Assembly (NCBI RefSeq): GCF_015350975.1
Contig: NZ_JADKRX010000004.1
Span: forward strand, 1 to 64,000
Direction: 5' to 3'
Length of the DNA stretch: 64,000 nt
From: Curtobacterium sp. VKM Ac-1395
Lineage (GTDB): Bacteria > Actinomycetota > Actinomycetes > Actinomycetales > Microbacteriaceae
Below, in pieces: positions 28,684 through 50,795 of this stretch; positions within the stretch are counted from its first letter, which is position 1, and each line of letters begins with the position of its first letter. A model generated the notes under the pieces. It was not told where the DNA came from. It saw only the letters and a program-made list of their open reading frames with translations, and made no database searches. Made by a program: the position numbers and the translations under genes.

Positions 28684-28803
28684 CGACCGGTCGCAACACC
28701 CCGCTCAGTTCCGCCGAGTGGGCGAAGAACGTCGTTCGACGGGCGCTCATCCGACGTGCTCTGACCAGTCGACGGATGTCCGTCGGGGAGTCTCGACCAC
28801 TCG
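28684..28803. repeat. Interspersed palindromic element, copy A
   Basis: An element of 120 bp with imperfect terminal inverted repeats of about 38-40 bp (left arm 28684-28721, right arm 28764-28803). The left arm starts CGACCGGTCGCAACACCCCG. Related copies occur at 29869-29985, 46299-46419, 46522-46641, 50396-50513 and 50677-50795. It lies between the 3' ends of two convergent genes. Confidence 0.75.
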
Positions 28804-28834
28804 AGGCCGCGGCTTCACCGACAGCGCGTCCTCC

Positions 28835-29743
28835 TCACGCCGCGAATCGACGAACCGTGGCCAGTCGCTGCTCGAACGCCTGACGGAGTCGCTCGAACAC
28901 GACAGCCGGCCGGTGCGCATCCGCCGACGTCGCGTGGATGGCGATCCAGTCGTTGACGGTGAAGCCGTTGTCGCGCCGCTGGTCGTGGTGGAACGCGTCG
29001 CGCTCCCGGTGGTGGTCCCCGTCGTACTCGAACGCGATGCGGTGATCCGGCCACGCCATGTCCACGCGACCGAGCAACCGGCCGTCCGGGTCACGAACTT
29101 CGACGTTCAGCTCCGGCTCCGGGAACCCGGCGTCCACGATCGCCAACCGGAACCAGGTCTCCATCGCCGACTCCGATCCCACTCGGACCAGGTCGACCGC
29201 CGTCCGCGCGGCCACCGCAGATCGGGACCCCGGAACGATCGCGCCGAACAGGTCTGCCATTGTCGTCGTCAGGTCGCTCCGCCCCACGAAGTGGTCTCCG
29301 ACCGCGACGAGGGCACGGGTCCCCAGCAGCGGAACGCACTGCGCCCACGTGTCCTCGGGTGTGGACAGCCATCGCCCCGCCACCTCGATGACTCCAGACG
29401 CCGAGAGACGGTGGCCATGGACCCGTGCCCGCCGCATCCGAGGGCCCGTCCCGCTCGTCGAGACGTGCACGGTCTGCTCGCGCTGCACTGCCAGCGGCAG
29501 AGGTGCTCCCCAGAGCCGGGCAGCGGTCGTGTGGCTGAAGAACTGATCCGGACGCATCACGAGCGACAGCGCTTCGACGAAGGACTCGAAGTCGTCACCG
29601 CCCGCCGCCACTCGGACTCCGTGGACCGGTGCGGCCAGGTCGGAGCGACGGAGGCGCTCGGCGTTCACGCCCATCCCGACAGCGTCAGCGACCCGGAAGG
29701 GTCGGTGCGAGAGGGCATCGGGAAGCGGTTGCAGGCGAGGCAT
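28835..29743 (-). CDS. Orphan protein with Vsr/DUF559-like nuclease domain
   Basis: A 302-residue protein of the common actinobacterial type often labelled AbiEi-like antitoxin or DUF559. The N-terminal half has LVMRPDQFFSHTTAARLWG and a winged-helix-like part. The C-terminal half has ETWFRLAIVDAGFPEPELN, then GRVDMAWPDHRIAFEYDGDH, a PD-(D/E)xK-type nuclease core (Asp, Glu, Tyr-Asp-Gly). No toxin gene is adjacent, so I make no toxin-antitoxin claim. The start at 29743 has GGAGG upstream; the longer frame to 29932 runs into a repeat element. Confidence 0.7.
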   Translation of the reverse strand: MPRLQPLPDALSHRPFRVADAVGMGVNAERLRRSDLAAPVHGVRVAAGGDDFESFVEALSLVMRPDQFFSHTTAARLWGAPLPLAVQREQTVHVSTSGTGPRMRRARVHGHRLSASGVIEVAGRWLSTPEDTWAQCVPLLGTRALVAVGDHFVGRSDLTTTMADLFGAIVPGSRSAVAARTAVDLVRVGSESAMETWFRLAIVDAGFPEPELNVEVRDPDGRLLGRVDMAWPDHRIAFEYDGDHHRERDAFHHDQRRDNGFTVNDWIAIHATSADAHRPAVVFERLRQAFEQRLATVRRFAA

Positions 29744-30096
29744 CCCACATCCTCCGGCGGGCGGGGCCGAACGCGACCCACGCCGGACCGGACTGTGGAG
29801 AACGTGCTGGCCCGAGCCTCCTGTGCGGAACCGCGTCGTCCCGGATCCCGCCCTGGCGGCGCTTCCACAGGTCACGACACACCGGCGGTGACCTGCCCAC
29901 TGGTCCGAACTGGTCGTTTGAAGCGAGCCCAAGCGACGTTCTGCGGCCGCTCGGCGGACGTGAGCGGGGTGTTGTGACCGGTCGGACTGGACTCACACAC
30001 GCGCGTGCGACGCGCACGCACCGCACGCCCCGGGACGCACGGGCGCACCCGCGCACGCACGCACCGCCCGCCCCCGGACGCCCGCCCCCGGACGCA
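29744..30096. other. Intergenic region with repeat element and GC-rich low-complexity DNA
   Basis: No gene seen. It contains repeat copy C (29869-29985). It also has an alternating purine-pyrimidine stretch rich in GCGCACGC words at about 29995-30090 that could adopt Z-DNA, directly before the groEL terminator. Confidence 0.6.
29869..29985. repeat. Interspersed palindromic element, copy C
   Basis: 117 bp. The right arm 29944-29985 is a close match to the family (on the minus strand it reads CCGACCGGTCACAACACCCC). The left arm 29869-29907 is more diverged (GGTCACGACACACCGG). It lies between a gene start and the groEL 3' end, the only copy not between convergent genes. Confidence 0.65.
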
Positions 30097-30133
30097 GGAA
30101 GGCCCCCGCACGCTGAGCGTGCGGGGGCCTTCC
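30097..30133. terminator. groEL terminator hairpin
   Basis: GGAAGGCCCCCGCACGC (30097-30113) is exactly mirrored at 30117-30133 with a TGA loop. It lies 13 bases after the groEL stop. Confidence 0.85.
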
Positions 30134-30145
30134 GTGGCGCTGGGA

Positions 30146-32199
<2,054 letters not shown>

Positions 32200-32349
32200 G
32201 ATCTGTTGCTCCCTGCGGTACAGCTGTAGCGATCAACGGCATCGTTCGGGTGATGCCGCGGGTCCGAGTGCGTGCACGCCTCACCCGGGTGTTCCTGGCG
32301 TCCGTCCCGAAGCGGGACGTCATTCCGAGCACTCCGGTGACCACTTGTG

Positions 32350-32377
32350 ACTCTAATCAGGAACGGCGTCCGGACAA
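32350..32377 (-). promoter_or_regulatory. cspA promoter with long 5' leader
   Basis: Minus-strand TTGTCC (32377-32372), 16 bases, TAGAGT (32355-32350), predicting a leader of about 145 bases. I find no gene between 32200 and 32486. Confidence 0.5.
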
Positions 32378-32486
32378 GGGCTGTCACGCACATTCCGCGC
32401 TGATTCCTCATGAACTCAACGTGCCGGAAACACCGTCGTCACATTGACCCCGCGGAATGCGGATCAATCACCGCGAAAGCACCCGG

Positions 32487-33098
32487 TCAGCCGCGGTAGT
32501 CCGCCCCGAGCACCACGCTGACGTCGGCGTTCGGGAACGCCGCCGACTGCTGCACGGCCGTCACCCCGAGCGACGCCGCGATGCCCTGCGCGACCGCCGC
32601 CTGCGACGCCTGCTGGTAGTACACGATCGTCGCGGTCGCCCCCGTCGTGCCGGCGTCCCCGGTCGACGTGACCTTCCACCCGGCGGTCGTCAGCTTCGTG
32701 GACGCGTTCGCGGCGAGCCCGCTCGTGGTCGTCCCGTTCAGCACGACCACGGTCGTGGCGCCCTGGTCCGTCGGTGCGGCCGCCGCGGGCGACGAGGCGT
32801 CACCGGCACCAGCGCCGGCGTCCGGACCGCTCGATCCGCCTGCGGACGGCGAGGCGGACGAGGTCGCCGACGACGACGCGGACGACGACGGCGACGAGCT
32901 GCTGCCGCCTCCGGTGAACGAGTAGCTGCCGTTCAGCAGCGCGAGCACGAGCACCCCGATGCCGACGAGCACCCCGGTCGCGAGCGCAGCCCAGGCGAAC
33001 GCGATCCAGCCGCGGCCACGACGGTGCACACCACGGTGCGCTCCGACTCGTGGCCCGTCGGTCACGTCGTCGAAGCGGTCATGGGAGAATCTCGTCAT
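32487..33098 (-). CDS. LytR C-terminal-domain envelope protein
   Basis: A 203-residue single-pass membrane protein: basic N-terminus, membrane helix at about 31-55, a Ser/Ala-rich linker, and a LytR_C domain from about 112 (TTVVVLNGTTTSGLAANAST, later VSVVLGADYRG). The catalytic LCP domain of LytR-CpsA-Psr ligases is absent, so it is probably an accessory wall protein. Its ATG overlaps the stop of the DUF3263 gene by four bases, an arrangement conserved in Actinobacteria. Confidence 0.87.
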   Translation of the reverse strand: MTRFSHDRFDDVTDGPRVGAHRGVHRRGRGWIAFAWAALATGVLVGIGVLVLALLNGSYSFTGGGSSSSPSSSASSSATSSASPSAGGSSGPDAGAGAGDASSPAAAAPTDQGATTVVVLNGTTTSGLAANASTKLTTAGWKVTSTGDAGTTGATATIVYYQQASQAAVAQGIAASLGVTAVQQSAAFPNADVSVVLGADYRG

Positions 33099-33427
33099 CG
33101 TTCCTCTTCGGTTCGGTGGGCGTCGGCGGGTGCGACGAAGCTGCGAGCAGCGCGTGCACTCGTCCGCGTTCGCCGCAGACGCTGGAGTCGACCGACGAGC
33201 TGCGGGTCGTACGCGAGCGCCGCCGGTGTGTCGATCACCCGGTTGAGCACCTGGTAGTAGCGGGCCGGGGACATGTCGAACTCCACCCGGATCTCCGCTT
33301 CCTTCGTCCGGTCGTGCCGCGCGCGGTCGTGCTCGAAGGCGAGCACGTGCTTCGCGAGCTCACTGAGCTCGTCCGCGGGGATGGTGGTCACGACGGTCCG
33401 ATCACATTCGGGCAACGGGTCTCGCAC
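33095..33427 (-). CDS. DUF3263 family small DNA-binding-like protein
   Basis: A 110-residue protein. The core LAKHVLAFEHDRARHDRTKE, then EIRVEFDMSPARYYQVLNRV, is the DUF3263 helix-turn-helix-like signature. Function unknown. It is translationally coupled to the LytR_C gene. The GTG at 33427 is used here; a second GTG twelve codons in (33391), giving MTTIPADELSEL, is equally likely because a TACGAT -10-like hexamer abuts the first. Confidence 0.83.
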   Translation of the reverse strand: MRDPLPECDRTVVTTIPADELSELAKHVLAFEHDRARHDRTKEAEIRVEFDMSPARYYQVLNRVIDTPAALAYDPQLVGRLQRLRRTRTSARAARSFVAPADAHRTEEER

Positions 33428-33496
33428 ATCGTAGGGGTGCGGCGGATGGTCACCCTGGCATGGCGCTGGACTGTCGTGGATTCACCCTCAGGACCG

Positions 33497-34528
33497 TCAC
33501 AGCGACGGGTCGCGGAACCACCGGGTGGCGGTGCCGAACGCGTCGCAGACGGCCAGGGCCACGCCGTCGAGGGACACCGTCGCGAAGCACGCCGGGTCCG
33601 CCGGGTCGATCCCGTCGGGCAGCGTGGAGGCCACCCCGGCGAGGATCCCGGTGCGTTCGAGCGCGACCCAGTGCACGCCGCGCTCGGTGACGCGGTCGAC
33701 GAACCGCTGCCGGTCGGCGCCCGGCACGTAGACGAGGGTGCCGGCCGTCAGCACGACGGGCTCGCAGTCCGCGGGCAGCGCGTCGAGGGCGCGGTCCAGG
33801 TCGTCCGGTACACGGCCGGTGATCCGGACGGGAGGCTCGGCCAGCGTCACGCGCGCTGCCTCGCGCATCAGGGCGGTCCGGTCCGTCGCCTCGGGCGGGA
33901 CGGCCTGCACCAGCCGTTCGAAGGCCCCGGGGATCCGCAGGTCGACGGGGTGCGGGTCGAGCGCCACGCGCCCGGCGACCCGGATCGCGGCGGCCGACGG
34001 CGACGGCACGGTTCCCCACGCGTCCGCGGTCAGCCGGAGCGACGGCCCCGCGGGCGCGGTGTGCATCCGCACGAGCTCGGATCGCGCCCCACTGTGCCCA
34101 TCGTGCACCCGGAGGTCGAGCGTCACCCGGTCCGGGAACGAGCACAGGCTCGCCGCGGCACCGACGTCGACCAGGCCGAGCGGCCGTGCGACGGCCGCGG
34201 CGAGCGCCGCGACCACCGGCACCAGCGGACCGAGCCGTCGCGGGTCGTTGGCCTGCACCGTCGCGGTGGCGAGGGCCGCGACCAACGCGGGGCGGGCCTC
34301 CTGTCCGAGTGCGCGGAGCGCGGCCGGGTCCGACGGGTCGGCACCCAGGCCGCGGGCGACCGCGAAGACCAGCTCGGGCTGCCGCTGGGTCGGCGGCACC
34401 GTGTCGAGGAGCGCGACCAGGTCGTCGTCGAGCGACCGCGCCCAGGCGGCGTAGGACGGCGAGACGTCCGCGATCCGGTCCGCGTAGGCGGCGTAGCGCT
34501 CCCGCGTCGACGGCGGTGGAGTGGTCAC
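33497..34528 (-). CDS. DUF2332 domain protein
   Basis: A 343-residue protein of the DUF2332 family: RERYAAYADRIADVSPSYAAWARSL at the N-terminus, then GDSA-type segments replaced by RPLGLVDVGAAASLCSFPDR in the middle and HWVALERTGIL near the end. The family has no proven function. The GTG start overlaps the stop of the acetyltransferase gene (GTGA), so the two are one unit. Rightward frames in this stretch are shadows. Confidence 0.85.
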   Translation of the reverse strand: MTTPPPSTRERYAAYADRIADVSPSYAAWARSLDDDLVALLDTVPPTQRQPELVFAVARGLGADPSDPAALRALGQEARPALVAALATATVQANDPRRLGPLVPVVAALAAAVARPLGLVDVGAAASLCSFPDRVTLDLRVHDGHSGARSELVRMHTAPAGPSLRLTADAWGTVPSPSAAAIRVAGRVALDPHPVDLRIPGAFERLVQAVPPEATDRTALMREAARVTLAEPPVRITGRVPDDLDRALDALPADCEPVVLTAGTLVYVPGADRQRFVDRVTERGVHWVALERTGILAGVASTLPDGIDPADPACFATVSLDGVALAVCDAFGTATRWFRDPSL

Positions 34529-34998
34529 GCGCCGGGGCGGTACATGCCGACGTGGGTGATGCCGGCCTCGGCGTACGGTGCCCCGAAGCGGACGAAGCCG
34601 TGCCGTTCGTAGAGCGCGGCGACGTACTCCTGGGCGTGCAGGACGACCGGCTCGTGCCCGTGCTCGGCGAGGACGGCGCCGACGAGCCGGCTCGCGATGC
34701 CGGTGCCTCGGTGGTCGGGGTGGGTGGCGACACGGCCGACGACCCACGCCGGGGCTGCCGCGTCCGCCGGGTGCTGCTCGTCCGGGGCGGGTCGGATCAG
34801 GCGGAGGTACCCCACCGCATCGGCCTCGGTTCCGAACCACCAGTGCTCGGTGTCGGGCTCGCGGTCACGGCCGTCGAAGTCCTCGGCCGAGACGTGTTGT
34901 TCGAGCGCGAACACCCGGTTCCGCAACCGCACGATGCCGTACAGTTCGTCCGTCGTCAGGCGGTCCCAGCGGGTGCGGTGCACGGAATGTCTGGACAT
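34525..34998 (-). CDS. ElaA-like GNAT acetyltransferase
   Basis: A 157-residue GNAT protein with the ElaA pattern: RWDRLTTDELYGIVRLRNRV, then FALEQHVSAEDFDGRD, acetyl-CoA loop VATHPDHRGTGIASRLV and C-terminal YERHGFVRFGAPYAEAGITH. The substrate is unknown. The start at 34998 is fixed by TAAACT seven bases upstream, a leaderless arrangement. It is divergent from msrB. Confidence 0.88.
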   Translation of the reverse strand: MSRHSVHRTRWDRLTTDELYGIVRLRNRVFALEQHVSAEDFDGRDREPDTEHWWFGTEADAVGYLRLIRPAPDEQHPADAAAPAWVVGRVATHPDHRGTGIASRLVGAVLAEHGHEPVVLHAQEYVAALYERHGFVRFGAPYAEAGITHVGMYRPGA

Positions 34999-35053
34999 CG
35001 CGGCGAGTTTACTGAAGTGGCCGACACCCACGGCTGGAAAGCAGGAGGAACCC

Positions 35054-35458
35054 ATGGCACACAACGTCGAGAAGTCAGACGCCGAGTGGCGCGAGGAGCT
35101 CTCCCCCGAGCAGTACGCCGTGCTGCGGCAGGCCGGCACGGAGCGTCCCTGGACCGGTGAGCTCCTGGACGAGGAGCGCGCCGGCATCTACACCTGTGCG
35201 GCGTGCAACGCGGAGCTGTTCAAGAGCGGCACGAAGTTCGACTCCGGCTGCGGCTGGCCGTCGTTCTACGAGTCGGTCGACCCCCAGGCCGTCACGCTCA
35301 TCGAGGACCGTTCGCTCGGCATGGCCCGCACCGAGGTCCGTTGCGCGAACTGCGGCTCGCACCTCGGGCACGTGTTCCCGGACGGCTTCGGCACCCCGAC
35401 CGGTGACCGGTACTGCATGAACTCGCTGTCGCTGAACTTCTCCGCGCAGGGCGAGTGA
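35054..35458 (+). CDS. msrB: Methionine-R-sulfoxide reductase B
   Basis: A 134-residue repair enzyme that reduces the R isomer of methionine sulfoxide. The zinc site is two CxxC pairs (TCAACN and RCANCG). The active site is GDRYCMNSLSLNF with the catalytic Cys, and GCGWPSFY and HLGHVFPDGF are present. AGGAGG lies six bases before the ATG. The complete set of residues indicates an active enzyme. Confidence 0.96.
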   Translation: MAHNVEKSDAEWREELSPEQYAVLRQAGTERPWTGELLDEERAGIYTCAACNAELFKSGTKFDSGCGWPSFYESVDPQAVTLIEDRSLGMARTEVRCANCGSHLGHVFPDGFGTPTGDRYCMNSLSLNFSAQGE

Positions 35459-35492
35459 CCCGGACGCCCTCGTTGGTACGATGAGGGCGTCA

Positions 35493-35565
35493 GCCAGCAT
35501 GGCGCAATTGGTAGCGCACCGTACTTGTAATACGGGGGTTGCGGGTTCAAGTCCCGCTGCTGGCC
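35493..35565 (+). tRNA. tRNA-Thr (anticodon UGU), integration site of the island
   Basis: Cloverleaf: acceptor GCCAGCA/TGCTGGC, D stem GCGC/GCGC, anticodon stem CCGTA/TACGG with loop CTTGTAA, and T arm GCGGG-TTCAAGT-CCCGC. No CCA is encoded. The 3' half from anticodon position 35 onward is repeated at 38627-38666, so integration preserved an intact tRNA. Confidence 0.95.
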
Positions 35566-35566
35566 C
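35527..35566. repeat. Attachment site attL in tRNA-Thr
   Basis: 40 bp, starting GTAATACGGGGGTTGCGGGT, identical to 38627-38666. The repeat ends exactly one base past the tRNA gene, as expected for a tyrosine integrase core at a tRNA 3' end. Confidence 0.92.
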
Positions 35567-35568
35567 GA

Positions 35569-35615
35569 AAAGCCCCGATCAGGAACCGTTTCTAGGAGTT
35601 CCGGATCGGGGCTTT
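35569..35615. terminator. tRNA-Thr terminator
   Basis: AAAGCCCCGATC and its perfect complement (35604-35615) enclose an inner GGAAC/GTTCC stem. It lies immediately after the tRNA and inside the island. Confidence 0.75.
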
Positions 35616-35651
35616 CCCGTTGCACCCCGCACTTACCCCGCGGATTGACGT

Positions 35652-36548
35652 TCAGTCAGTCAGCTTCGACAGAGCTTGCGCGGCTCGCTCGCTGCCGGTG
35701 TTCCGGCCCATGTACCTGTCCTGCGTCATCGAGGGGTTCTTGTGCCCCAGGTACTCGGCGACGTCCCTGGCGGACAGCCCTGAACCGTCGAGCAGCGTCG
35801 CGACTGTCTTTCGGAACGCGTGCAGCTTCACCCCGGCGAACCCGATACGGTCTCGAGCATCCCGCGAGTCGGCCTGCGTGTTGTTCGGGTCACGCAGGTT
35901 TCCGAGGGGCGACGGGAAGACCAGCTCTCCGTCGCCTCGCGATGCCGCTCGTCGTCGGAGCATCGCGTCGACGTGTTCGGGAATCGCGATCCGCCTGTCC
36001 GACCCCTGAGTCTTGCCATGGTCCTGGCGCAGTAAGCCGGCCCCGGGGATGCGTACTACCGTCGAGTGGATATGTACGGCCCCCGGGTGCACGTCATCCC
36101 AGACCATCGCGCACGCCTCCCCTACCCGGCACCCCGTACCCGCCATGAAACGAAGCAGGTCGGGCAGGTCCAACTGACGCAGGCGTGCATCCAGGTCCGC
36201 ACGGACAAAGAGATCCTGTAGCTGCTCAGCACTTAGGGCAGTGGCTCCGTCCCGCCGCTGAGAGACGCGCTCAAGCTCCCGGACGGCGTTCGTGCGCGCG
36301 GCGTCGTTGCGGACGGCGAACCCGAGCATCCCGCTCAGGACGGCGCGACACATCCTCGCCGAGGCGGGGCCGTGGTTCATGATCACCTGGTCCATGAACC
36401 GCTGCAGCCGCTCAGGAGTGGCTTCGAGGACCGCCAACTCACCGAGCGCCGGGAGGATGATCCTGTCGAGAGTCCGTTCGCCGACGCGCTCCACCCGAAC
36501 GCCCGTGGGCGCGCTGATGCGGCGCGCTGGGTGTCGGCTGCTCTCCAC
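35652..36548 (-). CDS. Tyrosine-type site-specific integrase, short N-terminus
   Basis: A 298-residue integrase with the full catalytic set: Arg141 (CRVGEACAM), Lys179, His243 and Arg246 (KLHAFRKT), His269 (EYLGHK) and nucleophile Tyr279 (DRYMG). The core-binding domain starts only at LDRIILPALGELAVLE (about residue 28). The arm-binding domain and first part of the core-binding domain, about 80-100 residues in relatives, are missing, and a terminator lies right upstream. It is therefore probably 5'-truncated, although the GTG-started remainder is open. It sits beside attL and points toward it. Confidence 0.88.
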   Translation of the reverse strand: MESSRHPARRISAPTGVRVERVGERTLDRIILPALGELAVLEATPERLQRFMDQVIMNHGPASARMCRAVLSGMLGFAVRNDAARTNAVRELERVSQRRDGATALSAEQLQDLFVRADLDARLRQLDLPDLLRFMAGTGCRVGEACAMVWDDVHPGAVHIHSTVVRIPGAGLLRQDHGKTQGSDRRIAIPEHVDAMLRRRAASRGDGELVFPSPLGNLRDPNNTQADSRDARDRIGFAGVKLHAFRKTVATLLDGSGLSARDVAEYLGHKNPSMTQDRYMGRNTGSERAAQALSKLTD

Positions 36549-36570
36549 GCGCTGTAGCCCTGCACGACAA

Positions 36571-36606
36571 GACCCCCTCGGGTTCCTTCGGGAACCCGAG
36601 GGGGTC
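36571..36606. terminator. Strong bidirectional terminator upstream of the integrase
   Basis: GACCCCCTCGGGTTCC is perfectly mirrored around a TTCG tetraloop and followed on the plus strand by TTTCGTTT. It lies directly after the stop of the small gene at 36614 and next to the truncated integrase start. Confidence 0.88.
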
Positions 36607-36613
36607 TTTCGTT

Positions 36614-36802
36614 TCAGGACTTCTCGACGCGGGCGATCCGCGCGATGAGCCTGTCGGAGATCGATTCGACCTTCTCGCGATTGTTCCCGAATCCGTCGTA
36701 GAAGTCGTAGTAGCCGTCGTTGTGCTCGTAGTCAGCGGCGTTCACGCTTCCGTGAAAAGACATGCCACTGACGCCATCGTTGATCTTGTACGTGTACTTC
36801 AC
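36614..36802 (-). CDS. Small island protein of unknown function
   Basis: A 62-residue reading frame from a GTG with GAAAGG eight bases upstream: MKYTYKINDGVSGMSFHGSV, then an acidic aromatic part (DYEHNDGYYDFYDGF) and a basic helix DRLIARIARVEKS. The codon use is less GC-biased than the surroundings. An upstream start at 36865 would overlap the divergent gene at 36852, so I prefer the GTG. I recognise no family. Confidence 0.5.
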   Translation of the reverse strand: MKYTYKINDGVSGMSFHGSVNAADYEHNDGYYDFYDGFGNNREKVESISDRLIARIARVEKS

Positions 36803-36839
36803 TTTTACGCCTTTCTCGACGTGCTCGATCCTCCGAAGG

Positions 36840-36845
36840 TACAGT
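36840..36845 (+). promoter_or_regulatory. -10 hexamer before the divergent island gene
   Basis: TACAGT ends six bases before the ATG at 36852, suggesting a leaderless transcript. Confidence 0.45.
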
Positions 36846-36851
36846 CCGACC

Positions 36852-37286
36852 ATGACGTACGCCATCGAGCACGAGAACGAGCGGCCCCACGAGGCGGACG
36901 GACCCTACCGGACAGGCGTGTACAAGACGATCGCCGAGGCAAAGGCGGCCGGTGAGCGCACCGCGAAGCATGAGGGACTGACCGGCGTCGTCATTCGAGA
37001 CCGCGGCGACACCGTGAGCATCTTCGCCGGCAACCTCGTCTCCGAGCTCGTCGACGGCGTCTGGCACGACCGCGGCATCTTCGACGTGCAGAACTGGTGG
37101 CCGAAGCTCGACGACGACACCCGGGCCTGGCTGCTCGAGCACGCCGACGAGCAGGTCCCGACCGAGACCCTGCACCGCATCGTTGCGGTCGGTGGCATCG
37201 TGCCCGGTACCCAGTGGGAAGGACAAGGGGACTACGACTTCCGGCTCCCGTACGAAGCAGCGGAGTGGATCAAGCAGCGGGCATGA
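36852..37286 (+). CDS. Hypothetical island protein
   Basis: A 144-residue soluble protein: MTYAIEHENERPHEADGPYR, then a helix TIAEAKAAGERTAKHEGLTG, a strand VVIRDRGDTVSIF, DVQNWWPKLDDDTRAWLLEHADEQ and a C-terminal RLPYEAAEWIKQRA. The first 55 residues resemble small proteins that handle a repeated parameter or stress signal, but no named domain is evident. It is divergent from the 62-residue gene. Function unknown. Confidence 0.65.
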   Translation: MTYAIEHENERPHEADGPYRTGVYKTIAEAKAAGERTAKHEGLTGVVIRDRGDTVSIFAGNLVSELVDGVWHDRGIFDVQNWWPKLDDDTRAWLLEHADEQVPTETLHRIVAVGGIVPGTQWEGQGDYDFRLPYEAAEWIKQRA

Positions 37287-41398: not shown

Positions 41399-41452
41399 GG
41401 CGCGGACGCTACGCCCGCGTGCCCCGCAGTCGAGAGGGCCTGGCAGTACCCG

Positions 41453-42199: not shown

Positions 42200-42262
42200 C
42201 ACGGCGCGGGGTCGGGGAGCGGCGGGGACGAGTGAGATGGCCTCTCAGGGTATCGGGGCACT

Positions 42263-43042
42263 GTGGACCGCATGGACGGCTACGGCGGCGATCAGATCCG
42301 GGCGGCTGAGCGGCCCCACCTCGACGCGGGCGAACCCCTCATGCAGCGGGCGGCCGACGGCCTGGCCGCCATCGTCGGCGCACTGCTCGACGACCCGGCC
42401 GAACGGCCGGGCGACGGCCCCGGCACGGTCCTGCTCCTCGTCGGCAGCGGCGACAACGGCGGCGACGCCCTCTTCGCCGGCGCGCGGCTCGCAGCCGCCG
42501 GCCGGACCGTCGAGGTGGTCCGGGTCGGCAGTCGGGTCCACGAGTCGGGGATGGCCGCCGCCCTGGAGGCCGGGTGCAGCCTCCTGGGTGGACCGTCCGA
42601 CTCCGGGACGGGCGCGTCCACTGCCGGCGCCGCGGACGTCCTGCGGGCTGCGGTGCCGTCGGACGCCGACCGTCTGGCGGAGCTGACGACCGAGGCGGCG
42701 CTCCGCGCCGACCTGGTTCTCGACGGGATCCTCGGCATCGGGGTGTCCGGGGCGTCCGCGCTCCGCTCCCCCGCGCGGGAGTGCGTCCACGCGATCCGCG
42801 AGCTCGCGCGCGACCAGCGGGCGCCCTTCGTCGTCGCGGTGGACGTGCCGAGCGGCATCGACGTCGACACCGGCGGGATCGCGGACGACCACGTCCTGCA
42901 CGCCGACGTCACCGTGACGTTCGGTGGGGTGAAGGCCGGGCTGCTGCGCGGTCCGGCCGCGACCCTCGCCGGACGGATCGAGCTCGTCGACGTCGGGATC
43001 GCGGCCGACCTCGCGGCGATGGAGCCGCTCATCCGGACCTGA
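42263..43042 (+). CDS. nnrE: NAD(P)H-hydrate epimerase (YjeF N-terminal domain)
   Basis: A 259-residue single-domain protein with the AIBP/YjeF_N fold: LMQRAADGLAA, VGSGDNGGDALFAGARL, VLDGILGIGVSG, VDVPSGIDVDTGG and VTFGGVKAGLL. It epimerises damaged R-NADHX/NADPHX for repair. The kinase-like dehydratase domain (NnrD) often fused to it is absent and should be encoded elsewhere. A GTG start lies six bases after TATCGG; an ATG three codons in is the alternative. Confidence 0.92.
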   Translation: MDRMDGYGGDQIRAAERPHLDAGEPLMQRAADGLAAIVGALLDDPAERPGDGPGTVLLLVGSGDNGGDALFAGARLAAAGRTVEVVRVGSRVHESGMAAALEAGCSLLGGPSDSGTGASTAGAADVLRAAVPSDADRLAELTTEAALRADLVLDGILGIGVSGASALRSPARECVHAIRELARDQRAPFVVAVDVPSGIDVDTGGIADDHVLHADVTVTFGGVKAGLLRGPAATLAGRIELVDVGIAADLAAMEPLIRT

Positions 43043-43049
43043 CCGCGGG

Positions 43050-43991
43050 TCAGATGCCGCCGGCGTCCACACCGTCCTCGACGTCACCGCGGGCCTCGAG
43101 CCAGGTGTCGACGAAGTGGCGGTAGTTCGCCGCGATGAGGCCTTCTGCCGCCTCGGTGTCGAGGCCCTCGTGCACCACGTCCTCGAGCGGCTCCTCCCAG
43201 TTGCTCCGGCCGATCGCGAACCCGACGAAGCCGTCGACCGGTGCCGCGGTGCGCAGCCAGTGGTCGAGCTGCTCCTCGGGGGCGTCGCGGCCGAGGACGA
43301 TGCACTGCACCGAGTCGCGGCCGTCACGGCGGGCGGTCGCGACGACGCGCTCGGCGTCCTCGGAGCGGTCGAGGCCCTCGAGCTTCCAGACGTCGGCCTC
43401 GACCCCGTGGTCCTGCAGGTACTCGAGCACCTGCACGACGAGGTCCGGGCGGAGGTCGAGGTCGTAGTCCTCGACCGATGCCTTCTGCTCGTCGGTGCCG
43501 GGGACGAGCAGTTCGACGAGGAACGGGCGGCCGGCGTCGCGCAGGGCCGTGGCGACCTCGGCGAGGTCCGACGCCTGCTGCGCCCGGGGCTCGGCGTCGT
43601 ACGCGGGGTTGTCGCGGACGAGCACCTTCACCCAGTCCGGGTCGAAGGAGTCGACGTGCGCCATCCAGTCGTCGCCGTACTCGAGCTCGAACCACTCGCG
43701 CCCCGACCGCTCGATCGGCATCGCGAGCTGCAGGCCGGCCTCCTTGACCAGACGGGCGACGTCGGCACCGTAGAGCTCGTCGACGAGCACGCCCGTCCGC
43801 TCGCGGGACGCACCGGCGGCGAGCGCCGTCAGGACCCCGCGGTAGACGAGCTGCTTGCCGGCGCGCACCCGTGCGGACTCGGCCTCGTCGGCCGGTTCAC
43901 CGCCGGACTCGTCGTAGGTGTGCTCGAGCAGCGACGAGCGCTGGTCCATCGCGAGCAGGAACAGGGGGTGACGTTCATCGAGCTTCGGCAT
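43050..43991 (-). CDS. DUF2090 (IolC C-terminal-like aldolase fold) protein
   Basis: A 313-residue protein starting HPLFLLAMDQRSSLLEHTY. It has VLVDELYGADVARLVKEAG, FVGFAIGRSNWEEPLEDV and RHFVDTWLEAR near the C-terminus. This is the DUF2090 domain found at the end of some IolC proteins and as free-standing aldolase-like enzymes. A sugar-phosphate aldolase role is plausible but unproven. TAGGAC lies six bases before the ATG. A 19-bp tandem repeat lies just upstream. Confidence 0.87.
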   Translation of the reverse strand: MPKLDERHPLFLLAMDQRSSLLEHTYDESGGEPADEAESARVRAGKQLVYRGVLTALAAGASRERTGVLVDELYGADVARLVKEAGLQLAMPIERSGREWFELEYGDDWMAHVDSFDPDWVKVLVRDNPAYDAEPRAQQASDLAEVATALRDAGRPFLVELLVPGTDEQKASVEDYDLDLRPDLVVQVLEYLQDHGVEADVWKLEGLDRSEDAERVVATARRDGRDSVQCIVLGRDAPEEQLDHWLRTAAPVDGFVGFAIGRSNWEEPLEDVVHEGLDTEAAEGLIAANYRHFVDTWLEARGDVEDGVDAGGI

Positions 43992-44040
43992 GGTCCCGTC
44001 CTACTCCCCGTTCCGTCAGCGCCGCCTCGGTCCGTCCGTG

Positions 44041-44078
44041 CTGACTCGTTCCGTCAGTACTGACTCGTTCCGTCAGTG
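44041..44078. repeat. 19-bp tandem duplication
   Basis: CTGACTCGTTCCGTCAGTA at 44041-44059 and CTGACTCGTTCCGTCAGTG at 44060-44078. Each unit contains the inverted repeat CTGAC/GTCAG. The second copy runs into the last codons of the glycerol dehydrogenase gene. Confidence 0.85.
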
Positions 44079-45218
44079 CTTCGCGACGTACCGCTCGGGC
44101 TCGGGCAGCCCGTGCGCGGCGCGGATGCTCCGGCTGAGGCCCTCGATCGCGATCAGCGCGTCGACGACCAGGTCCGGGGTCACGGGGAACGGCATGTTGT
44201 GGATGGTCTCGCTCTCCACCGTGGCGGCGTCGGCGACCGCGCGGAGCACGTCGGTGTCCTCGACCGTGAGCCCGATCTCGGTGAGCGTGTTCGGCAGACC
44301 GACCCGGGTCGTGAAGACGACGAAGTCCTCGATCTCCGCTGCGGGCGCCCCTTCCATCACGAGCTGCGCGAGCGTGCCGATGTTGACCTTCTGCCCGTGC
44401 GCCAGGCCGTGCGCCTGCGGGGCCGCGGTCAGGCCGTTGTGGATCGCGTGCGCGGCCGCCAGCCCACCGGACTCGAACCCGAGGCCGGACAGCAGGGTGT
44501 TCGCCTCGACGACCTTCTCCAGCGCGGGGGTGACGACCTTCGCCTTCACGGCCTCGATCGCCTGCAGGGCGTTGTCGTGCAGCAGGTCCCAGGACAGCTG
44601 CGCCAGGGCGACGCCCGTCTCGGTCTGACGTCCGCCCGCCATCGTGTCGGCGTTCGCGCGCTTGGCGGCCCGGGCCTCGACCCAGGTGGCCAGGGCGTCA
44701 CCGATGCCGGCGACGAGGAACTGGACCGGGGCATTCGCGACGAGCTGCGTGTCGATGAGCACGAGGTCCGGGTTGTGCGGGAAGAAGCGGTACTCGATGA
44801 ACTCGCCCTCCTCGGAGTAGATCACCGCGAGCGCCGAGGTCGGGGCGTCGGTCGAGGCCGCGGTCGGCACGCTCGCCCACCGGACGTCGGCCAGGTGCCC
44901 GGAGGCCTTGGCGGCGTCGATCGCCGACCCGCCGCCGAGGCCCACCACGACGTCGGACCCGGTGGCACGGATGCGCTCGACCAGCGCGTCCACGGCTGCC
45001 GGCGTCGCGAACCGGCCGAAGCCGACACGCTCGACGGGGAGCCCGGCGGCCTCGAAGCTCTCGGTGACGGCGGACTCGACGATGCCCCACACGACGTCGT
45101 CGGCGACGATGAGCGGACGGGAGCCGACCGGGGCGACGAACTCCCCGACGCGGGTGATCGCACCGCGTCCCTGCACGTAGCGGGCGGGGCTCATCACGGT
45201 GGTGATGGGGGTGGCCAT
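44073..45218 (-). CDS. gldA: Glycerol dehydrogenase (iron/zinc-type alcohol dehydrogenase family)
   Basis: A 381-residue NAD-linked dehydrogenase. It starts MATPITTVMSPARYVQGRGA; GGGSAIDAAKASGH binds NAD. The metal ligands are an Asp in AGIGDALATW and two His in HAIHNGL and HGLAHGQKVNIG. Length and motifs fit GldA, which oxidises glycerol to dihydroxyacetone. GGAAGGAACAG precedes the ATG at 45218. It is divergent from the metalloprotease gene. Confidence 0.92.
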   Translation of the reverse strand: MATPITTVMSPARYVQGRGAITRVGEFVAPVGSRPLIVADDVVWGIVESAVTESFEAAGLPVERVGFGRFATPAAVDALVERIRATGSDVVVGLGGGSAIDAAKASGHLADVRWASVPTAASTDAPTSALAVIYSEEGEFIEYRFFPHNPDLVLIDTQLVANAPVQFLVAGIGDALATWVEARAAKRANADTMAGGRQTETGVALAQLSWDLLHDNALQAIEAVKAKVVTPALEKVVEANTLLSGLGFESGGLAAAHAIHNGLTAAPQAHGLAHGQKVNIGTLAQLVMEGAPAAEIEDFVVFTTRVGLPNTLTEIGLTVEDTDVLRAVADAATVESETIHNMPFPVTPDLVVDALIAIEGLSRSIRAAHGLPEPERYVAKH

Positions 45219-45332
45219 GGCTGTTCCTTCCGTCGTGGGCGCCCGTCGTTGTGCGACAGGTGTCGGCTGGTCCCGACACGGCCGACGGTACGCCGCGCAC
45301 CACAACGCCCGGTGATCCGTACATTCGTCAGC

Positions 45333-46226
45333 ATGACGTTCAACGACGACTCCCGACTGCAGGGCGGCAAGGTCAAGCGCCGCGGACGGACGACGACCGC
45401 TGTGGCCGGTGGCGGGGTCGGGGTCGCGGTCCTGGTGTTCCTCATCGCGCAGTTCACCGGCTTCGACCTCAGCGGCGTCGTCGGTGGCGACGGCGGACTC
45501 ACCCAGATCCAGGGCGGCGGAGCGACGGCCGAACCGGTGACCGAGTGCCGCACCGGCCGCGACGCGAACGCCGACGTCGACTGCCGCATGGAGGGCGCCG
45601 CCGAGTCCCTCGACGCCTACTGGACGGCGGAGAGCCGGCAGCTCGGCGTCTCCTACACGACCCCGGACTTCTACCTGTTCGACGGCTCGACGGACACCGC
45701 GTGCGGCACGGCCTCGGCGTCGACGGGCCCGTTCTACTGCCCGCCGGACCGCGCGCTCTACCTCGACACCGCGTTCTACGACGACCTGCAGTCGAAGTAC
45801 GGCTCCTCGGGCGGTCCGCTCGCGCAGATGTACGTCGTCGCCCACGAGTGGGGCCACCACGTGCAGCAGCTCCAGGGCACCTTCGCCGACACCGACCGCA
45901 GCGGCACCGGGGCGTCCTCAGGCAGCGTCCGCGTCGAACTGCAGGCCGACTGCTACGCCGGCGCGTGGGTGGGGAACGCCGCGTCGACGGAGTCCGCCAA
46001 CGGCCAGACCTTCTTCGAGCCGTTCACCCGCGCGCAGATCGCGGACGCCCTGTCGGCCGCCAGCGCCGTGGGCGACGACAGCATCCAGGAGCGCTCGAGC
46101 GGACACGTCGACCCGGACTCCTTCACGCACGGGTCGAGCGAGCAGCGGCAGCGCTGGTTCGAGCGCGGCTACGAGCAGGGCGCGCTGACCTGCGACACGC
46201 TCAGCATCCCCGGCTCGTCCCTCTAG
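45333..46226 (+). CDS. YpfJ-type neutral zinc metallopeptidase
   Basis: A 297-residue single-pass membrane protein of the YpfJ/DUF2342-like zinc peptidase family. A cytoplasmic basic tail is followed by a membrane helix (about 22-42). The catalytic HEWGHH is at 171-176, with the third ligand region VELQADCYAGAW. Tail residues GHVDPDSFTHGSSEQRQRWF are family-typical. It is expected to act outside the membrane. TACATT lies seven bases before the ATG (leaderless). Confidence 0.92.
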   Translation: MTFNDDSRLQGGKVKRRGRTTTAVAGGGVGVAVLVFLIAQFTGFDLSGVVGGDGGLTQIQGGGATAEPVTECRTGRDANADVDCRMEGAAESLDAYWTAESRQLGVSYTTPDFYLFDGSTDTACGTASASTGPFYCPPDRALYLDTAFYDDLQSKYGSSGGPLAQMYVVAHEWGHHVQQLQGTFADTDRSGTGASSGSVRVELQADCYAGAWVGNAASTESANGQTFFEPFTRAQIADALSAASAVGDDSIQERSSGHVDPDSFTHGSSEQRQRWFERGYEQGALTCDTLSIPGSSL

Positions 46227-46477
46227 CCCCGCTCACCGGGCGGGAACGCCTGGAGGCCCGTCACCCGGCCGCCGGACCGGTCGCAGACCGTCGTGGGCCG
46301 ACCGGTCGCAACTCCCCGCTCACATCCGCCGACCGGTCGTAGACCGTCAGCCGGGGCGGCGCGCGGCGACGGCCTCTGGCCGCTCGGCGCGCATCCGACG
46401 GGGTGTCGTGACCGCTCGGCGAGCCCCGCTCACCGGGCGGGACCGCCTGGAGGCCCGTCACCCGGCCGCCGGACCGG
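46225..46477. repeat. 56-bp direct repeat pair after the metalloprotease gene
   Basis: 46225-46280 and 46422-46477 match at all but one position, 197 bases apart. The unit contains CGCCTGGAGGCCCG, half of the long-hairpin motif. The region looks like a duplicated block (about 197 bp per unit) that has since diverged. Confidence 0.8.
46299..46419. repeat. Interspersed palindromic element, copy D
   Basis: 121 bp; left arm 46299-46339 (starts CGACCGGTCGCAACTCCCCG), right arm 46377-46419 (on the minus strand CCGAGCGGTCACGACACCCC). Confidence 0.75.
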
Positions 46478-46497
46478 CACCGGGCCTCCAGGCGGTC
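46441..46497. terminator. GGAGGCC-family hairpin
   Basis: GACCGCCTGGAGGCCCG (46441-46457) is exactly complemented at 46481-46497. It has the same arm sequence as the hairpin at 50596-50656 and shares TGGAGGCCCG with 56031-56093. Confidence 0.7.
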
Positions 46498-46521
46498 GCG
46501 TCCACCGCGGCACACGGTCCA

Positions 46522-46641
46522 CCGAGCGGTCAGGACTCCCCGCTCACGTCCGCCGACGGGTCACCGATCGTCGGTCGCATCGACGCGGAGCGACGGTCAG
46601 TGGCCGCTCGGCATGCACCACGCGGGGTGTCGTGACCGGTC
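46522..46641. repeat. Interspersed palindromic element, copy E
   Basis: 120 bp; left arm 46522-46563 contains GGACTCCCCGCTCACGTCCG, right arm about 46601-46641 contains GCGGGGTGTCGTGACCGGTC. Its right end reaches the stop codon of the DsbA-like gene. Confidence 0.7.
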
Positions 46642-47587
46642 AGGAAGCGGAGGCTGAGGCGGAAGCCGACGCCGACGCCGACGGGGTGGGCGTGGGGGTC
46701 GGCGTCTGCTCGCCGGACCCGGCCACGGTGATCACGAACGTGCGGAACTCCTCGTTCGTGAACGGCTGCGAGTACTCGTACTGCTGCCCGTTCACGAGGA
46801 CGAGCGGCGTTCCCGGGAAGTCCTTCAGGGATGACCCGGCGATGTCCCCGCCCGACACCGCCGTGGTGCGCTCGTCGACCCACTTGCCGTAGCGCTGGTC
46901 GTCGATGCACTTCGCGATCGTCGACTTCGCCTCGATGCCGCGGACCCCGCCGACGACCTTCTTCAGCTGCGCGTCGGTGAGCCCGGGGGTGTTCTCCTCC
47001 GGCTGGGCGGCGAAGAGCGCCCGGTTGACGGCGAAGAACTGGTCCGGCGAGGACTGCGCGACGCAGGCGGCGGCGTTGGCCGCGCGGAGCGAGTACTTCG
47101 TGCCCTGCGAGCGGTTGGCGAGGATGGCGATCGGGTGGATGTCCACCGTGGCCACCCCTGACTCGACCAGGCCCTCGATGTAGTCGCTGTTCGCCTTCTC
47201 GAACTGGCCGCAGAACGGGCAGAGGTAGTCGACGTACATGGTGATCCGGACCGGCTCCGCACCGGCCGAGGCGCTGGTCGACGCGCTCGGCGACGAGGAC
47301 GCGCTCGAACCGGTCTCGGACACGGGCGTCATGCCCTGGGCGATCGTGATCCCGCCCTGGGGCATCGACGACGGACCGGGGCCAGCCGGCTTGGTGGAGT
47401 CGAGGAGGACGAGCGTCACGACCGTCGCCGCGGCGAGCAGGACGACGCCGAGGCCGACCTGCAGCCCGAGGCGGACTCCGCGCTGGCGTCGCTTCTGCTG
47501 GAGACGGGCCTTGGCGGCGCGTTCCCGGGCGGCTGCTCGGCGCTGGTTCCGCTCGGCGCGGGCATCACCCTCGGGGCGGTTCGTCAT
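46640..47587 (-). CDS. DsbA-family thiol-disulfide oxidoreductase, membrane-anchored
   Basis: A 315-residue protein with a very basic cytoplasmic start, a membrane helix at about 40-63 and a Ser-rich linker. A DsbA-like thioredoxin domain then runs from about 110 with the active site CPFC (Cys123, Cys126), the cis-Pro segment FPGTPLVLVNG, and a Ser/Ala repeat tail. It should form or isomerise disulfides in exported proteins. AGGAGGAA precedes the ATG. The stop codon is embedded in repeat copy E. Confidence 0.92.
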   Translation of the reverse strand: MTNRPEGDARAERNQRRAAARERAAKARLQQKRRQRGVRLGLQVGLGVVLLAAATVVTLVLLDSTKPAGPGPSSMPQGGITIAQGMTPVSETGSSASSSPSASTSASAGAEPVRITMYVDYLCPFCGQFEKANSDYIEGLVESGVATVDIHPIAILANRSQGTKYSLRAANAAACVAQSSPDQFFAVNRALFAAQPEENTPGLTDAQLKKVVGGVRGIEAKSTIAKCIDDQRYGKWVDERTTAVSGGDIAGSSLKDFPGTPLVLVNGQQYEYSQPFTNEEFRTFVITVAGSGEQTPTPTPTPSASASASASASAS

Positions 47588-47850
47588 GACGAAGGGTTCC
47601 TCCTGATCAGGGCCCGCTCGCGCTCACCCCCGCAGGCGGACAGACCCGTCGATCGTAGTGGGGCGCTCTGGGAACCGCCCAATCAGCCCTGGGAGTGTGC
47701 CGATGAGCCCCGAAAGGGTGGCGCGGGGGTCTGTACTCGTGCTTGTATGAGCCCGATGGTCGACGACGACCATCCGGGGCCCTCACGGGCGTACCGCTTC
47801 ACTCGGATCGTCCGGCACGTACCTGCCGGTGGAGAAAGGACCGAACGCTC

Positions 47851-48951
<1,101 letters not shown>

Positions 48952-48967
48952 TCCACAGCACCACCCC

Positions 48968-49009
48968 GGGAGCCCGCGCCCGCCTCACAAGGGCGGGTGG
49001 CGGGCTCCC
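48968..49009. terminator. msmK terminator
   Basis: GGGAGCCCGC and its complement with an inner CGCCCGCC/GGCGGG stem, starting 17 bases after the stop. Confidence 0.75.
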
Positions 49010-49086
49010 GTCGTTCCGTCCCCGGGACGCACGCAGACCCGATGACGCGCACCGTGCCTCCCGTCCGAGCACCCGAAGGAACCACC

Positions 49087-50397
49087 GTGCCCGACTCGTT
49101 GTCCATCACCGCAGCCACCGTCGACCCCGGACTGCTCGACCTGCCGTGGGACCTGCCGCTCGACGCCTGGCCCGACGACACGATCGTCGCGCTGCCGAAG
49201 GGCATCTCGCGGCACCTGGTCCGCTTCGTGCACCTCAGCGGGTACGTCGTCGCGGTGAAGGAGACCGGCGAGGAGATCGCCCGCTCCGAGTACGAGATGC
49301 TCCGCACCCTGCAGCGGATGGACGTCCCGTGCGTGGACCCGGTCGCCGTCATCACGAACCGCGTCAGCGCGGACGGCGAGCCCCTGCACCCCGCGCTCGT
49401 CACCCGGCACCTCCGCTTCTCGCTCCCCTACCGGGCGCTGTACTCACAGACGCTCCGGCCGGAGACCGCCACGCGACTCGTCGACGCCCTCGCGCTGCTG
49501 CTGGTCCGGCTGCACATCATCGGCTTCTACTGGGGCGACGTCTCCCTGTCGAACACGTTGTTCCGCCGCGACGCCGGCTCGTTCGCCGCCTACCTCGTCG
49601 ACGCGGAGACCGGCAAGCTCTACCCGGGCGGCCTGTCGAACGGGCAGCGCGAGAACGACCTCGAGGTCGCGCGCGTGAACATCGCCGGCGAGCTCCTCGA
49701 CCTCGAAGCCGGCGGCCGGCTCGACGAGAACGCCGACGCCGTGGACGTCTCGAACCGGATCGTCGCCCAGTACCGGACGCTCTGGAAGGAGCTCACCGGC
49801 ACCGAGCAGTTCGACGCCAAGGAACGCTGGCGCATCAACGACCGCGTCGAACGCCTCAACGCGCTGGGCTTCGACATCGAGGAGCTCTCGATCAACACGG
49901 CCGCCGGCGGTGACCAGGTGCGCATCCAGCCGAAGGTCGTCGACGCCGGGCACCACCAGCGACGCCTGCTCCGCCTCACCGGGCTCGACGCCGGCGAGAA
50001 CCAGGCCCGACGCCTGCTCAACGACCTCGACGCCTACCGCGCGCGGAACGGTCGCGGGGAGCTCGACGAGGAGATGGTCGCGCACGAGTGGGTCTCCCGC
50101 GTCTTCGAGCCCGTCGTCCGGGCGATCCCGCGTGACCTCCGCGGTCGGCTCGAACCCGCCGAGGTCTTCCACGAGCTGCTCGAGCACCGCTGGTTCATGT
50201 CGCAGCAGGAGGAGCGCTCCGTCTCCCTGCCCGAGGCCACGACCGCGTACATCAACGACGTGCTCCGCCACCGCCGTGACGAGCGTCTGCTGATCAACCC
50301 GCCGACGTCCTCCATCACCGTGCCGATCCCGCTCGTCGACGCCGACGGTGACGTGGACGAGGACGACGAGGCCGAGGACTGGCGCGCCACCGTCTGA
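49087..50397 (+). CDS. DUF4032 protein with kinase-like N-terminal part
   Basis: A 436-residue protein. The N-terminal part resembles lipopolysaccharide-kinase-like folds: VVAVKETGEEIARSEYEMLR, then LLLVRLHIIGFYWGDVSLSN as the catalytic-loop-like segment and YLVDAETGKLYPGG in place of the DFG region. The DUF4032 domain follows (NDRVERLNALGFDIEELSIN, then QVRIQPKVVDAGHHQRRLLR). Actinobacterial, function unknown. I choose GTG 49087 with AAGGA upstream over an ATG at 49042. Its stop TGA is part of repeat copy F. Confidence 0.82.
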   Translation: MPDSLSITAATVDPGLLDLPWDLPLDAWPDDTIVALPKGISRHLVRFVHLSGYVVAVKETGEEIARSEYEMLRTLQRMDVPCVDPVAVITNRVSADGEPLHPALVTRHLRFSLPYRALYSQTLRPETATRLVDALALLLVRLHIIGFYWGDVSLSNTLFRRDAGSFAAYLVDAETGKLYPGGLSNGQRENDLEVARVNIAGELLDLEAGGRLDENADAVDVSNRIVAQYRTLWKELTGTEQFDAKERWRINDRVERLNALGFDIEELSINTAAGGDQVRIQPKVVDAGHHQRRLLRLTGLDAGENQARRLLNDLDAYRARNGRGELDEEMVAHEWVSRVFEPVVRAIPRDLRGRLEPAEVFHELLEHRWFMSQQEERSVSLPEATTAYINDVLRHRRDERLLINPPTSSITVPIPLVDADGDVDEDDEAEDWRATV

Positions 50398-50513
50398 CCG
50401 GTCACGACACCCCGCTCAGGTCCGTCGACCGGCCACACGTCGTCGTCCGGAGCGTCGCGCAGCGACGGCGCGTGCCCACTCGGCGGAACGCCGACGGGGA
50501 GTCCTGACCACGC
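50396..50513. repeat. Interspersed palindromic element, copy F
   Basis: 118 bp; left arm 50396-50436 begins GACCGGTCACGACACCCCGC, right arm 50475-50513. The centre (50434-50472) is nearly identical to that of copy G. The left end overlaps the stop codon of the preceding gene by two bases. Further right-arm-like pieces follow to about 50580. Confidence 0.82.
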
Positions 50514-50595
50514 GGCGCTGCGCGCGCGGGGTCTCGTGACCACTCGGCGGTGCGCCCGCGGAGAGTCCTGACCAGTCGGCCCGGCGCAGTGCGAT

Positions 50596-50656
50596 GCGAC
50601 CGCCTGGAGGCCCGGCGCCGGTCCCGCAGACCGGCACCGGGCCTCCAGGCGGTCGC
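50596..50656. terminator. GGAGGCC-family hairpin, 28-bp stem
   Basis: Arms 50596-50623 and 50629-50656 pair at 27 of 28 positions around a five-base loop. The arm begins GCGACCGCCTGGAGGCCCGG. Confidence 0.85.
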
Positions 50657-50676
50657 GTCACCGGAAGCTGGCTGCT

Positions 50677-50795
50677 GACCGGTCACGACACCCCGCTCAG
50701 GTCAGCCGACCGGTCACACGTCGTCGTCCGGAGCGTCGCGCAGCGACGGCGCGCGACCACTCGGCGGAACGCCGACGGGGAGTCGCGACCACTCG
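50677..50795. repeat. Interspersed palindromic element, copy G
   Basis: 119 bp; left arm 50677-50717 begins GACCGGTCACGACACCCCGC, right arm 50755-50795. It is closest to copy F, 281 bases to the left, suggesting a local duplication. Confidence 0.82.

Follow-up and report, generated by a model that had tools for sequence, protein, structure and literature searches.

A 64,000-nucleotide stretch of DNA from Curtobacterium sp. VKM Ac-1395 (assembly GCF_015350975.1, contig NZ_JADKRX010000004.1, positions 1 to 64,000; hereafter the window) carries six copies of an intergenic, nearly palindromic element, two of which enclose, in inverted orientation, the gene of a predicted nuclease. The six copies belong to a Curtobacterium family of 122-bp palindromes with four half-sites, whose likely partner, the predicted AbiEi–Vsr-like protein encoded by this gene, would bind the copies and probably spread and maintain them at the 3′ ends of genes. 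The copies and the gene lie in the window as follows.

28683..28804, + strand: element copy 1, flanking the nuclease gene at its 3′ end; half-sites CGASYGGTCRC of word class CGGT
28835..29743, − strand: candidate partner-protein gene, 302 aa, domains predicted from a structure model
29864..29985, − strand: element copy 2, flanking the nuclease gene at its 5′ end and inverted with respect to copy 1
46298..46419, + strand: element copy 3
46522..46643, + strand: element copy 4, overlapping the stop codon of a thioredoxin-fold gene at 46640
50394..50515, + strand: element copy 5, overlapping the stop codon of a DUF4032 gene at 50397
50675..50796, + strand: element copy 6

Architecture and distribution of the element

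The six window copies score 113 to 137 against a matrix trained on copies from the genome, themselves included, far above the maximum of −59 reached in 20 random 64-kb sequences of 71% G+C. The six palindromic copies reported by a first-pass annotation of the window are confirmed by these scores; their places were correct and their exact ends were off by 0–5 bases. The inverted arms and variable centre that it described hold in all six copies, as do their intergenic siting (five copies between convergent genes, one between codirectional genes) and the contact of two copies, 4 and 5, with stop codons. It overlooked the direction of the element, the four half-sites, the extra half-arms after copy 5 and the predicted nuclease gene bracketed by inverted copies 1 and 2. 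Its remark that no transposase is nearby is right in the narrow sense.

A covariance model was built from 44 own-genome copies chosen by their arm motif, a choice that favours conserved arms. This model returns 126 rows in the 3.92-Mb genome, which correspond to 64 distinct places, 62 of them hit on both strands owing to the near-palindromic form of the element. The length is exactly 122 bp at 53 of the 64 places and 107–124 bp at the other 11, and the 44-copy alignment has a mean column identity of 77% with 30 of 122 columns invariant. The element is directional, with CTCA[CG]GTCCGCC in one arm only. The motif CGASYGGTCRC occurs twice per arm, 31–32 bp apart, giving four half-sites with spacings of 31, 43 and 32 bp, as read from the same alignment. 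Some copies carry extra half-arms in 31–32 bp steps (after copy 5 in the window, and at loci L035 and L031), and some form tandem arrays with two further palindromes, B and C, at 262–270 bp steps.

Among 84,980 species genomes, an exact element pattern was found in 23 stretches, all from Curtobacterium, and one such pattern had no exact match in viral contigs. Under strict filters, and with 18 candidates evaluated per genome, the model matched 7 of 199 genomes of the family, three from the same genus and four from other genera with at most 47.2 bits.

The placement of the element relative to genes was determined with a simple purpose-made gene caller and copies found by the gapless matrix. The 59 copies found in this way occupy 39 intergenic regions of the own genome, 22 convergent, 17 codirectional and none divergent, with no copy inside a called gene; as a background, 12 of 60 neighbouring gene pairs in the window are divergent. 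One window gene was misread by the caller, and a Pfam match makes its region convergent, which corrects the counts to 23 convergent and 16 codirectional. The element has no constant orientation relative to transcription, with 7 codirectional sites running with it and 9 against it by eye. Also by eye, and with the origin assumed near base 1, no replichore polarity of the element direction is evident among the 52 places of the one-contig genome G043.

A predicted AbiEi–Vsr-like protein between inverted copies

The protein encoded between copies 1 and 2 is predicted to be an AbiEi-like DNA-binding module fused to a Vsr-like nuclease, with domains inferred from a structure model: a winged helix at about residues 1–48, an AbiEi-like domain at about 50–187 and a Vsr-like nuclease at about 190–302. 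Both the winged helix plus AbiEi-fold domain that characterise AbiEi antitoxins and a Vsr/EDxHD nuclease fold with conserved acidic residues are present in the model. A Pfam search with the 302-aa protein gave no match at E 10.

A homologue of the gene was found in all 60 of the genus genomes searched. Though present in all of them, the gene was taken as the candidate factor because its flanking palindromes change their word, the four bases between CGAG and CAC, with the genome. Its product is only 52% (G041) and 54% (G013) identical to the own protein, though these genomes are 96% and 95% identical over 3.7 kb. At the groL locus, the two flanks of the gene show inverted similarity above all shuffles at 34 of the 38 testable Curtobacterium loci (22/26 and 12/12), the 38 standing apart from four further loci cut by contig ends. 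A control over the window found such similarity in 1 of 61 tiles, namely the tile holding the nuclease gene. Homologues in other genera of the family show the same inverted similarity at 14 of 26 loci (a twenty-seventh is cut by a contig end).

In the own genome, a distant nuclease-paralog region (L326, C14:115700-119400) is flanked by another inverted palindrome, which contains GACACCGGTGT, and is possibly a separate repeat–gene pair. By eye, the unlinked paralogs L325, L329, L331 and L333 are preceded, but not followed, by a palindrome with a GAGCGGGCG-like word. At L393, in another genus, the flanks of a nuclease homologue match in inverted orientation over some 190 bases, with about ten tandem GACTGGCCACTTCCCCGCGT-like units.

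Flank words follow the protein tree

Genomes with no or few model matches contain elements of the same architecture in which CGGT is replaced by another word: GTTC in G012, GTCG in G018, a GC-rich word in G052 and, at the gene locus, ATCG in G041 and G013, all read by eye. A word-agnostic scaffold pattern has matches in 21 of 22 genomes, with 46 in G012, 42 in G046, 27 in G018 and 24 in G030, against 0, 2, 1 and 0 for the reversed pattern as control. Several words can coexist in one genome, as in G046.

The words flanking the gene were labelled by eye before tree building, GNGC being the weakest label; an automatic rule agrees with 33 of 42 labels, and a second rule, written after seeing the misses, with 35 of 42. 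In the tree of the 42 proteins, ATCG, GNGC and GTTC each form one supported clade, and CGGT and GTCG fall into three clusters each on an unresolved backbone. In the 26 genomes for which a housekeeping tree is available, the words can be explained by 3 changes on the protein tree, which is the minimum; the species tree requires 15 (13.9 with shuffled labels). Restricted to the 23 genomes whose labels are reproduced by rule, the numbers are 3 and 12 (shuffled mean 11.7). The flank word follows the protein tree, not the species tree.

Individual residues sort with the word as well. Residues 29, 37 and 102 separate CGGT from GTCG proteins completely. Threonine at residue 32 occurs in all 7 GTTC proteins only and glutamate at residue 103 in all 5 ATCG proteins only, with the caveat that the GTTC and ATCG protein classes are each a single clade. 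In the predicted winged helix, the third helix spans residues 28–31.

Dispersed copies and the allele at the gene locus

The number of CGGT-model matches per genome varies from 0 to at least 59 within the genus; these are matches rather than copy numbers, since one palindromic place may count twice, and are taken from the best 59 candidates, at most, per genome. At least 16 matches are present in all 13 CGGT-allele genomes and in 7 of 29 other-allele genomes (Fisher 3e-6, uncorrected for kinship).

Two sister genomes of the housekeeping tree differ in their allele: G043 has the CGGT allele and 52 places with the element, and G038 has the GTTC allele and no match. At 12 evaluable G043 sites (three further loci had one flank only), G038 has no CGGT element; three sites carry GTTC-type elements, three carry ATCG-type elements (one by eye), and six carry none. 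Likewise, G012, another GTTC-allele genome, has GTTC-type elements at 7 of 14 G043 sites and no CGGT type. Elements of the same architecture with a different word are found in both of these other-allele genomes, some of them in the same intergenic regions. At three of the empty sites the flank alignments overlap by 2, 3 and 25 bases, and the empty G038 sites look like deletions. In G012, orthologous 3′-end regions (L348, L356 and L364) hold other long intergenic tandem repeats with no relation to the element.

To account for these patterns, we infer that the protein binds the word, nicks or cuts, and copies the element into new 3′-end sites. In the cycle that we consider most likely, a gene allele would arrive together with its own flanking palindrome pair, and its protein would take this pair and other same-word copies as substrates. 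New-word copies would then accumulate at gene ends, often in intergenic regions already holding old-word copies, and old-word copies, unserved by the new allele, would be deleted over time. A wider proposal, which we put forward tentatively and whose chances we judge to be somewhat below even, is a repeat–nuclease class across the Microbacteriaceae, in which swappable AbiEi–Vsr alleles each read a 4-bp word in CGAG-NNNN-CAC, and a swap rewrites the dispersed palindromes, old ones being purged and new ones installed at 3′ ends.

Pairing and constraint on copies in place

The symmetry of the element does not behave like that of an RNA stem. Stem cells in the 44 copies are paired in 83.0% of cases against 84.6% after shuffling, and the observed covariation score is equalled or exceeded in all 500 shuffles. 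Changes on both sides of the stem affect 28 cells against a shuffled mean of 45.8; compensatory base-pair changes are thus not seen. The two outer-end pairs are mismatched in 32 and 27 of the 44 copies, because CGASYGGTC is kept by each half-site on its own account.

Copies at orthologous positions are constrained at the same columns. Across 24 orthologous pairs of the own genome and G029, substitution is 5.1% at 48 invariant columns and 27.2% at 44 variable columns. In 8 pairs of G041 and G029, neither of which had defined the columns, the values are 5.5% and 25.9%. For the more distant G043, whose divergence from the own genome is about 12% in the compared genes, 10 chosen pairs, two with misaligned tails, give 7.5% and 48.2%. 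At orthologous positions, change is five to six times rarer in conserved columns than in variable ones. Gap openings are about seven times rarer inside the element (20 per 2907 bases) than in 100-bp flanks (191 per 3882), the pairs having been picked by the gapless matrix, which biases them toward few gaps inside the element. Even at non-invariant columns, same-place copies of the own genome and G043 differ less (0.407) than different-place copies (0.526; 0/10,000 permutations, with one pair nearly identical).

Element-bearing counterparts are present in G029 for at least 35 of the 40 own regions and in G041 for at least 19, and 20 of 29 G043 loci, drawn from its 52 places and including one region twice, fall where the own genome also has an element. 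One element (L156 and L232) differs at 4 of 122 bases between the own genome and G043 in neighbouring sequence about 83–86% identical, which suggests recent transfer or conversion of that element.

The lack of covariation together with the in-place constraint on columns argues that the palindrome consists of protein-bound duplex sites rather than an RNA hairpin. As judged from the alignments, the symmetry of the element looks like that of protein sites on duplex DNA.

Weighing the evidence

Several observations weigh against a protein that spreads and maintains the elements. Binding, nicking and movement by the protein are steps that we supply, and a Foldseek search by itself found nothing at E 0.001 or better. 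Four of the 26 loci (G036, G011, G030 and G054) have no significant inverted similarity of the flanks, and only 1 of 8 unlinked paralogs has inverted flanks. The agreement between word and protein tree could be given by plain co-transfer of linked DNA. The scaffold pattern is barely above control in G014 (3 vs 2) and G015 (5 vs 2) and has no match in G050, and the copies read in G046 carry GGGC-type words where its gene flanks carry GTCG. The association with the allele is likewise imperfect. The 7 of 29 other-allele genomes with at least 16 CGGT matches still hold them, and the ATCG-allele genomes G041 (63 rows) and G013 (at least 58 matches) are rich in CGGT matches. The invariant columns of G041 are no more decayed than those of G029 (4.4% vs 5.1%), although the CGGT allele is absent. 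Among independent species pairs, 4–5 of 7 agree and none oppose, and the sign test (p 0.06–0.125) is not significant. The G038 assembly is in 320 contigs, so its zero may partly reflect assembly; at five empty G038 sites the missing piece is about 180–320 bp, not element-exact, and has no clear target duplication. Finally, the long in-place constraint exceeds the needs of a purely selfish repeat.

This last point is what would be expected if the elements were binding sites that serve the host at 3′ ends (in chromosome topology, as a block to read-through or in silencing) and are preserved by selection, and if the AbiEi–Vsr-like protein were a regulator or binder rather than a mover. The constraint at conserved columns against a species about 12% diverged, the near-constant length and the 3′-end positions speak for such sites, as does the sharing of most places with G029 (at least 35 of 40 regions) and of 20 of 29 examined G043 loci with the own genome. 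Whole word populations are, however, missing in relatives (0 of 12 sites in G038 and 0 of 14 in G012), with matches ranging from 0 to at least 59, and we consider host-serving sites unlikely, if well worth keeping in view. In another scenario, a harmful nuclease would be titrated by the dispersed palindromes, or self would be marked by them, and selection would keep same-word copies. Such a decoy or self-protection role would suit the predicted single-protein fusion of an antitoxin-like DNA-binding fold to a nuclease fold, and all 13 CGGT-allele genomes examined do have at least 16 matches; it is nonetheless improbable, since the toxicity of the nuclease is a supposition and some other-allele genomes keep large old-word populations.

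The first-pass annotation had itself offered non-autonomous mobile repeats, of the miniature inverted-repeat transposable element (MITE) kind or like repetitive extragenic palindromes (REP) and bacterial interspersed mosaic elements (BIME), or else amplified terminators of convergent genes. A plain, recently inserted MITE is at odds with the element-bearing counterparts in G029 and with the in-place constraint. The REP/BIME comparison holds in its logic, as the elements are amplified, sit at gene 3′ ends, form tandem composite arrays and vary between species; the genome has no Y1 transposase match. The elements are not confined to orthologous sites with no copies elsewhere in the genome, as copies are abundant and their presence or absence differs. 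That a MITE or REP is moved by an unrelated transposase, with the nuclease gene hitch-hiking in a swapped segment, would fit amplified and intergenic elements, and a flanking pair linked to the gene would travel along with it. Yet inverted flanks recur at 34 of 38 Curtobacterium and 14 of 26 other-genera loci against 1 of 61 control tiles, the genome has no Y1_Tnp (other transposase families were not searched for), and no clear target duplication was seen at the five empty sites compared. Only the nuclease gene was seen between the inverted copies, longer elements and further transposases not having been searched for systematically. We regard hitch-hiking as scarcely probable.

The least probable reading, and in our view a very nearly untenable one, takes the elements for bidirectional terminators or RNA hairpins that were amplified at convergent genes. 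By computation, the consensus would fold very stably as a single strand, and the 3′-end positions would suit a terminator. However, stem covariation is lacking, variable stem positions being uncompensated, and the codirectional sites have, by eye, no constant direction relative to transcription. Strong ordinary hairpins moreover coexist with the element, and in the two regions compared they are kept in many orthologous regions without it.

Other features of the window

Four further features accompany the element copies.

46435..46503: ordinary 3′-end 'C' hairpin between copies 3 and 4, outside the element
about 50516..50579: two extra 32-bp half-arm repeats attached to copy 5
50593..50659: ordinary 3′-end 'C' hairpin between copies 5 and 6, outside the element
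50822..50873: short palindrome 'B', word GATCGCAC, class ATCG; this word also stands beside the gene in G041, G013 and G023

Many of the 30 genomes compared carry the strong 'C' hairpin (CTGGAGGCCCGG...CCGGGCCTCCAG) in the regions orthologous to these two, whether the element is present or absent; it looks like the usual terminator. The nuclease gene has a histidine kinase gene and groL as its neighbours, and no AbiEii-type or nucleotidyltransferase toxin gene adjoins it in the window.

Implications

If the protein does spread and maintain the elements, palindromic repeat families need no HUH transposase, and an unrelated nuclease with interchangeable recognition alleles fills that role. The dispersed palindromes would then gain a testable protein and a readable word, with residues 29, 32, 102 and 103 as candidate specificity residues. 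The pairs G043 and G038, and the own genome and G041, would be natural experiments on repeat turnover after an allele swap. A family of sequence-specific nucleases whose specificities differ in nature would have practical interest as well.

Comparison with known systems

The enterobacterial repetitive intergenic consensus (ERIC) is an intergenic imperfect palindrome of about 127 bp without a known transposase; the present element resembles it in size and shape, and ERIC comes from other bacteria. The 23-bp inverted repeats that AbiEi and Rv2827c bind come in sets of two and four (PMC7319586). Compared with such antitoxins, the protein here is fused to a predicted Vsr-like nuclease, and its putative sites are dispersed genome-wide. 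No report of a Vsr/DUF559/I-Bth0305I-type nuclease paired with dispersed palindromes was found in searches of the open-licence literature.

The closest parallel is with REP sequences and their REP-associated tyrosine transposases (RAYT). In one study, the RAYT gene is a fast-evolving gene between two inverted palindromes that co-vary with the protein, and the cognate repeats are abundant where the gene is present, extragenic and arranged in BIME-like composites (PMC2817692). Similarly, the gene here changes fast and lies between two inverted palindromes at 34 of 38 testable Curtobacterium loci, and the abundance of the repeat follows the gene allele (13/13 vs 7/29), with a phylogeny-controlled test in the same direction and not significant. 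A RAYT was considered as the partner and rejected: Y1_Tnp (PF01797) has no match in the genome, and control genomes match in 5 of 14. We note three differences between the two systems. The enzyme here is not a Y1 HUH protein, its structure model matching AbiEi-like and Vsr-like folds instead. Whereas a REP is given as 20–40 bp in one account (PMC3733652), the element here is 122 bp with four half-sites, and its stem pairing is not selected. Neither end of the consensus has a fixed GTAG/GTGG or CGTC tag, GTGG occurring inside some CGAGTGGTC half-sites. By this analogy, the system is REP/RAYT-like in its logic and different in its parts, with a predicted, unrelated enzyme and, as its putative address, a 122-bp duplex of four sites.

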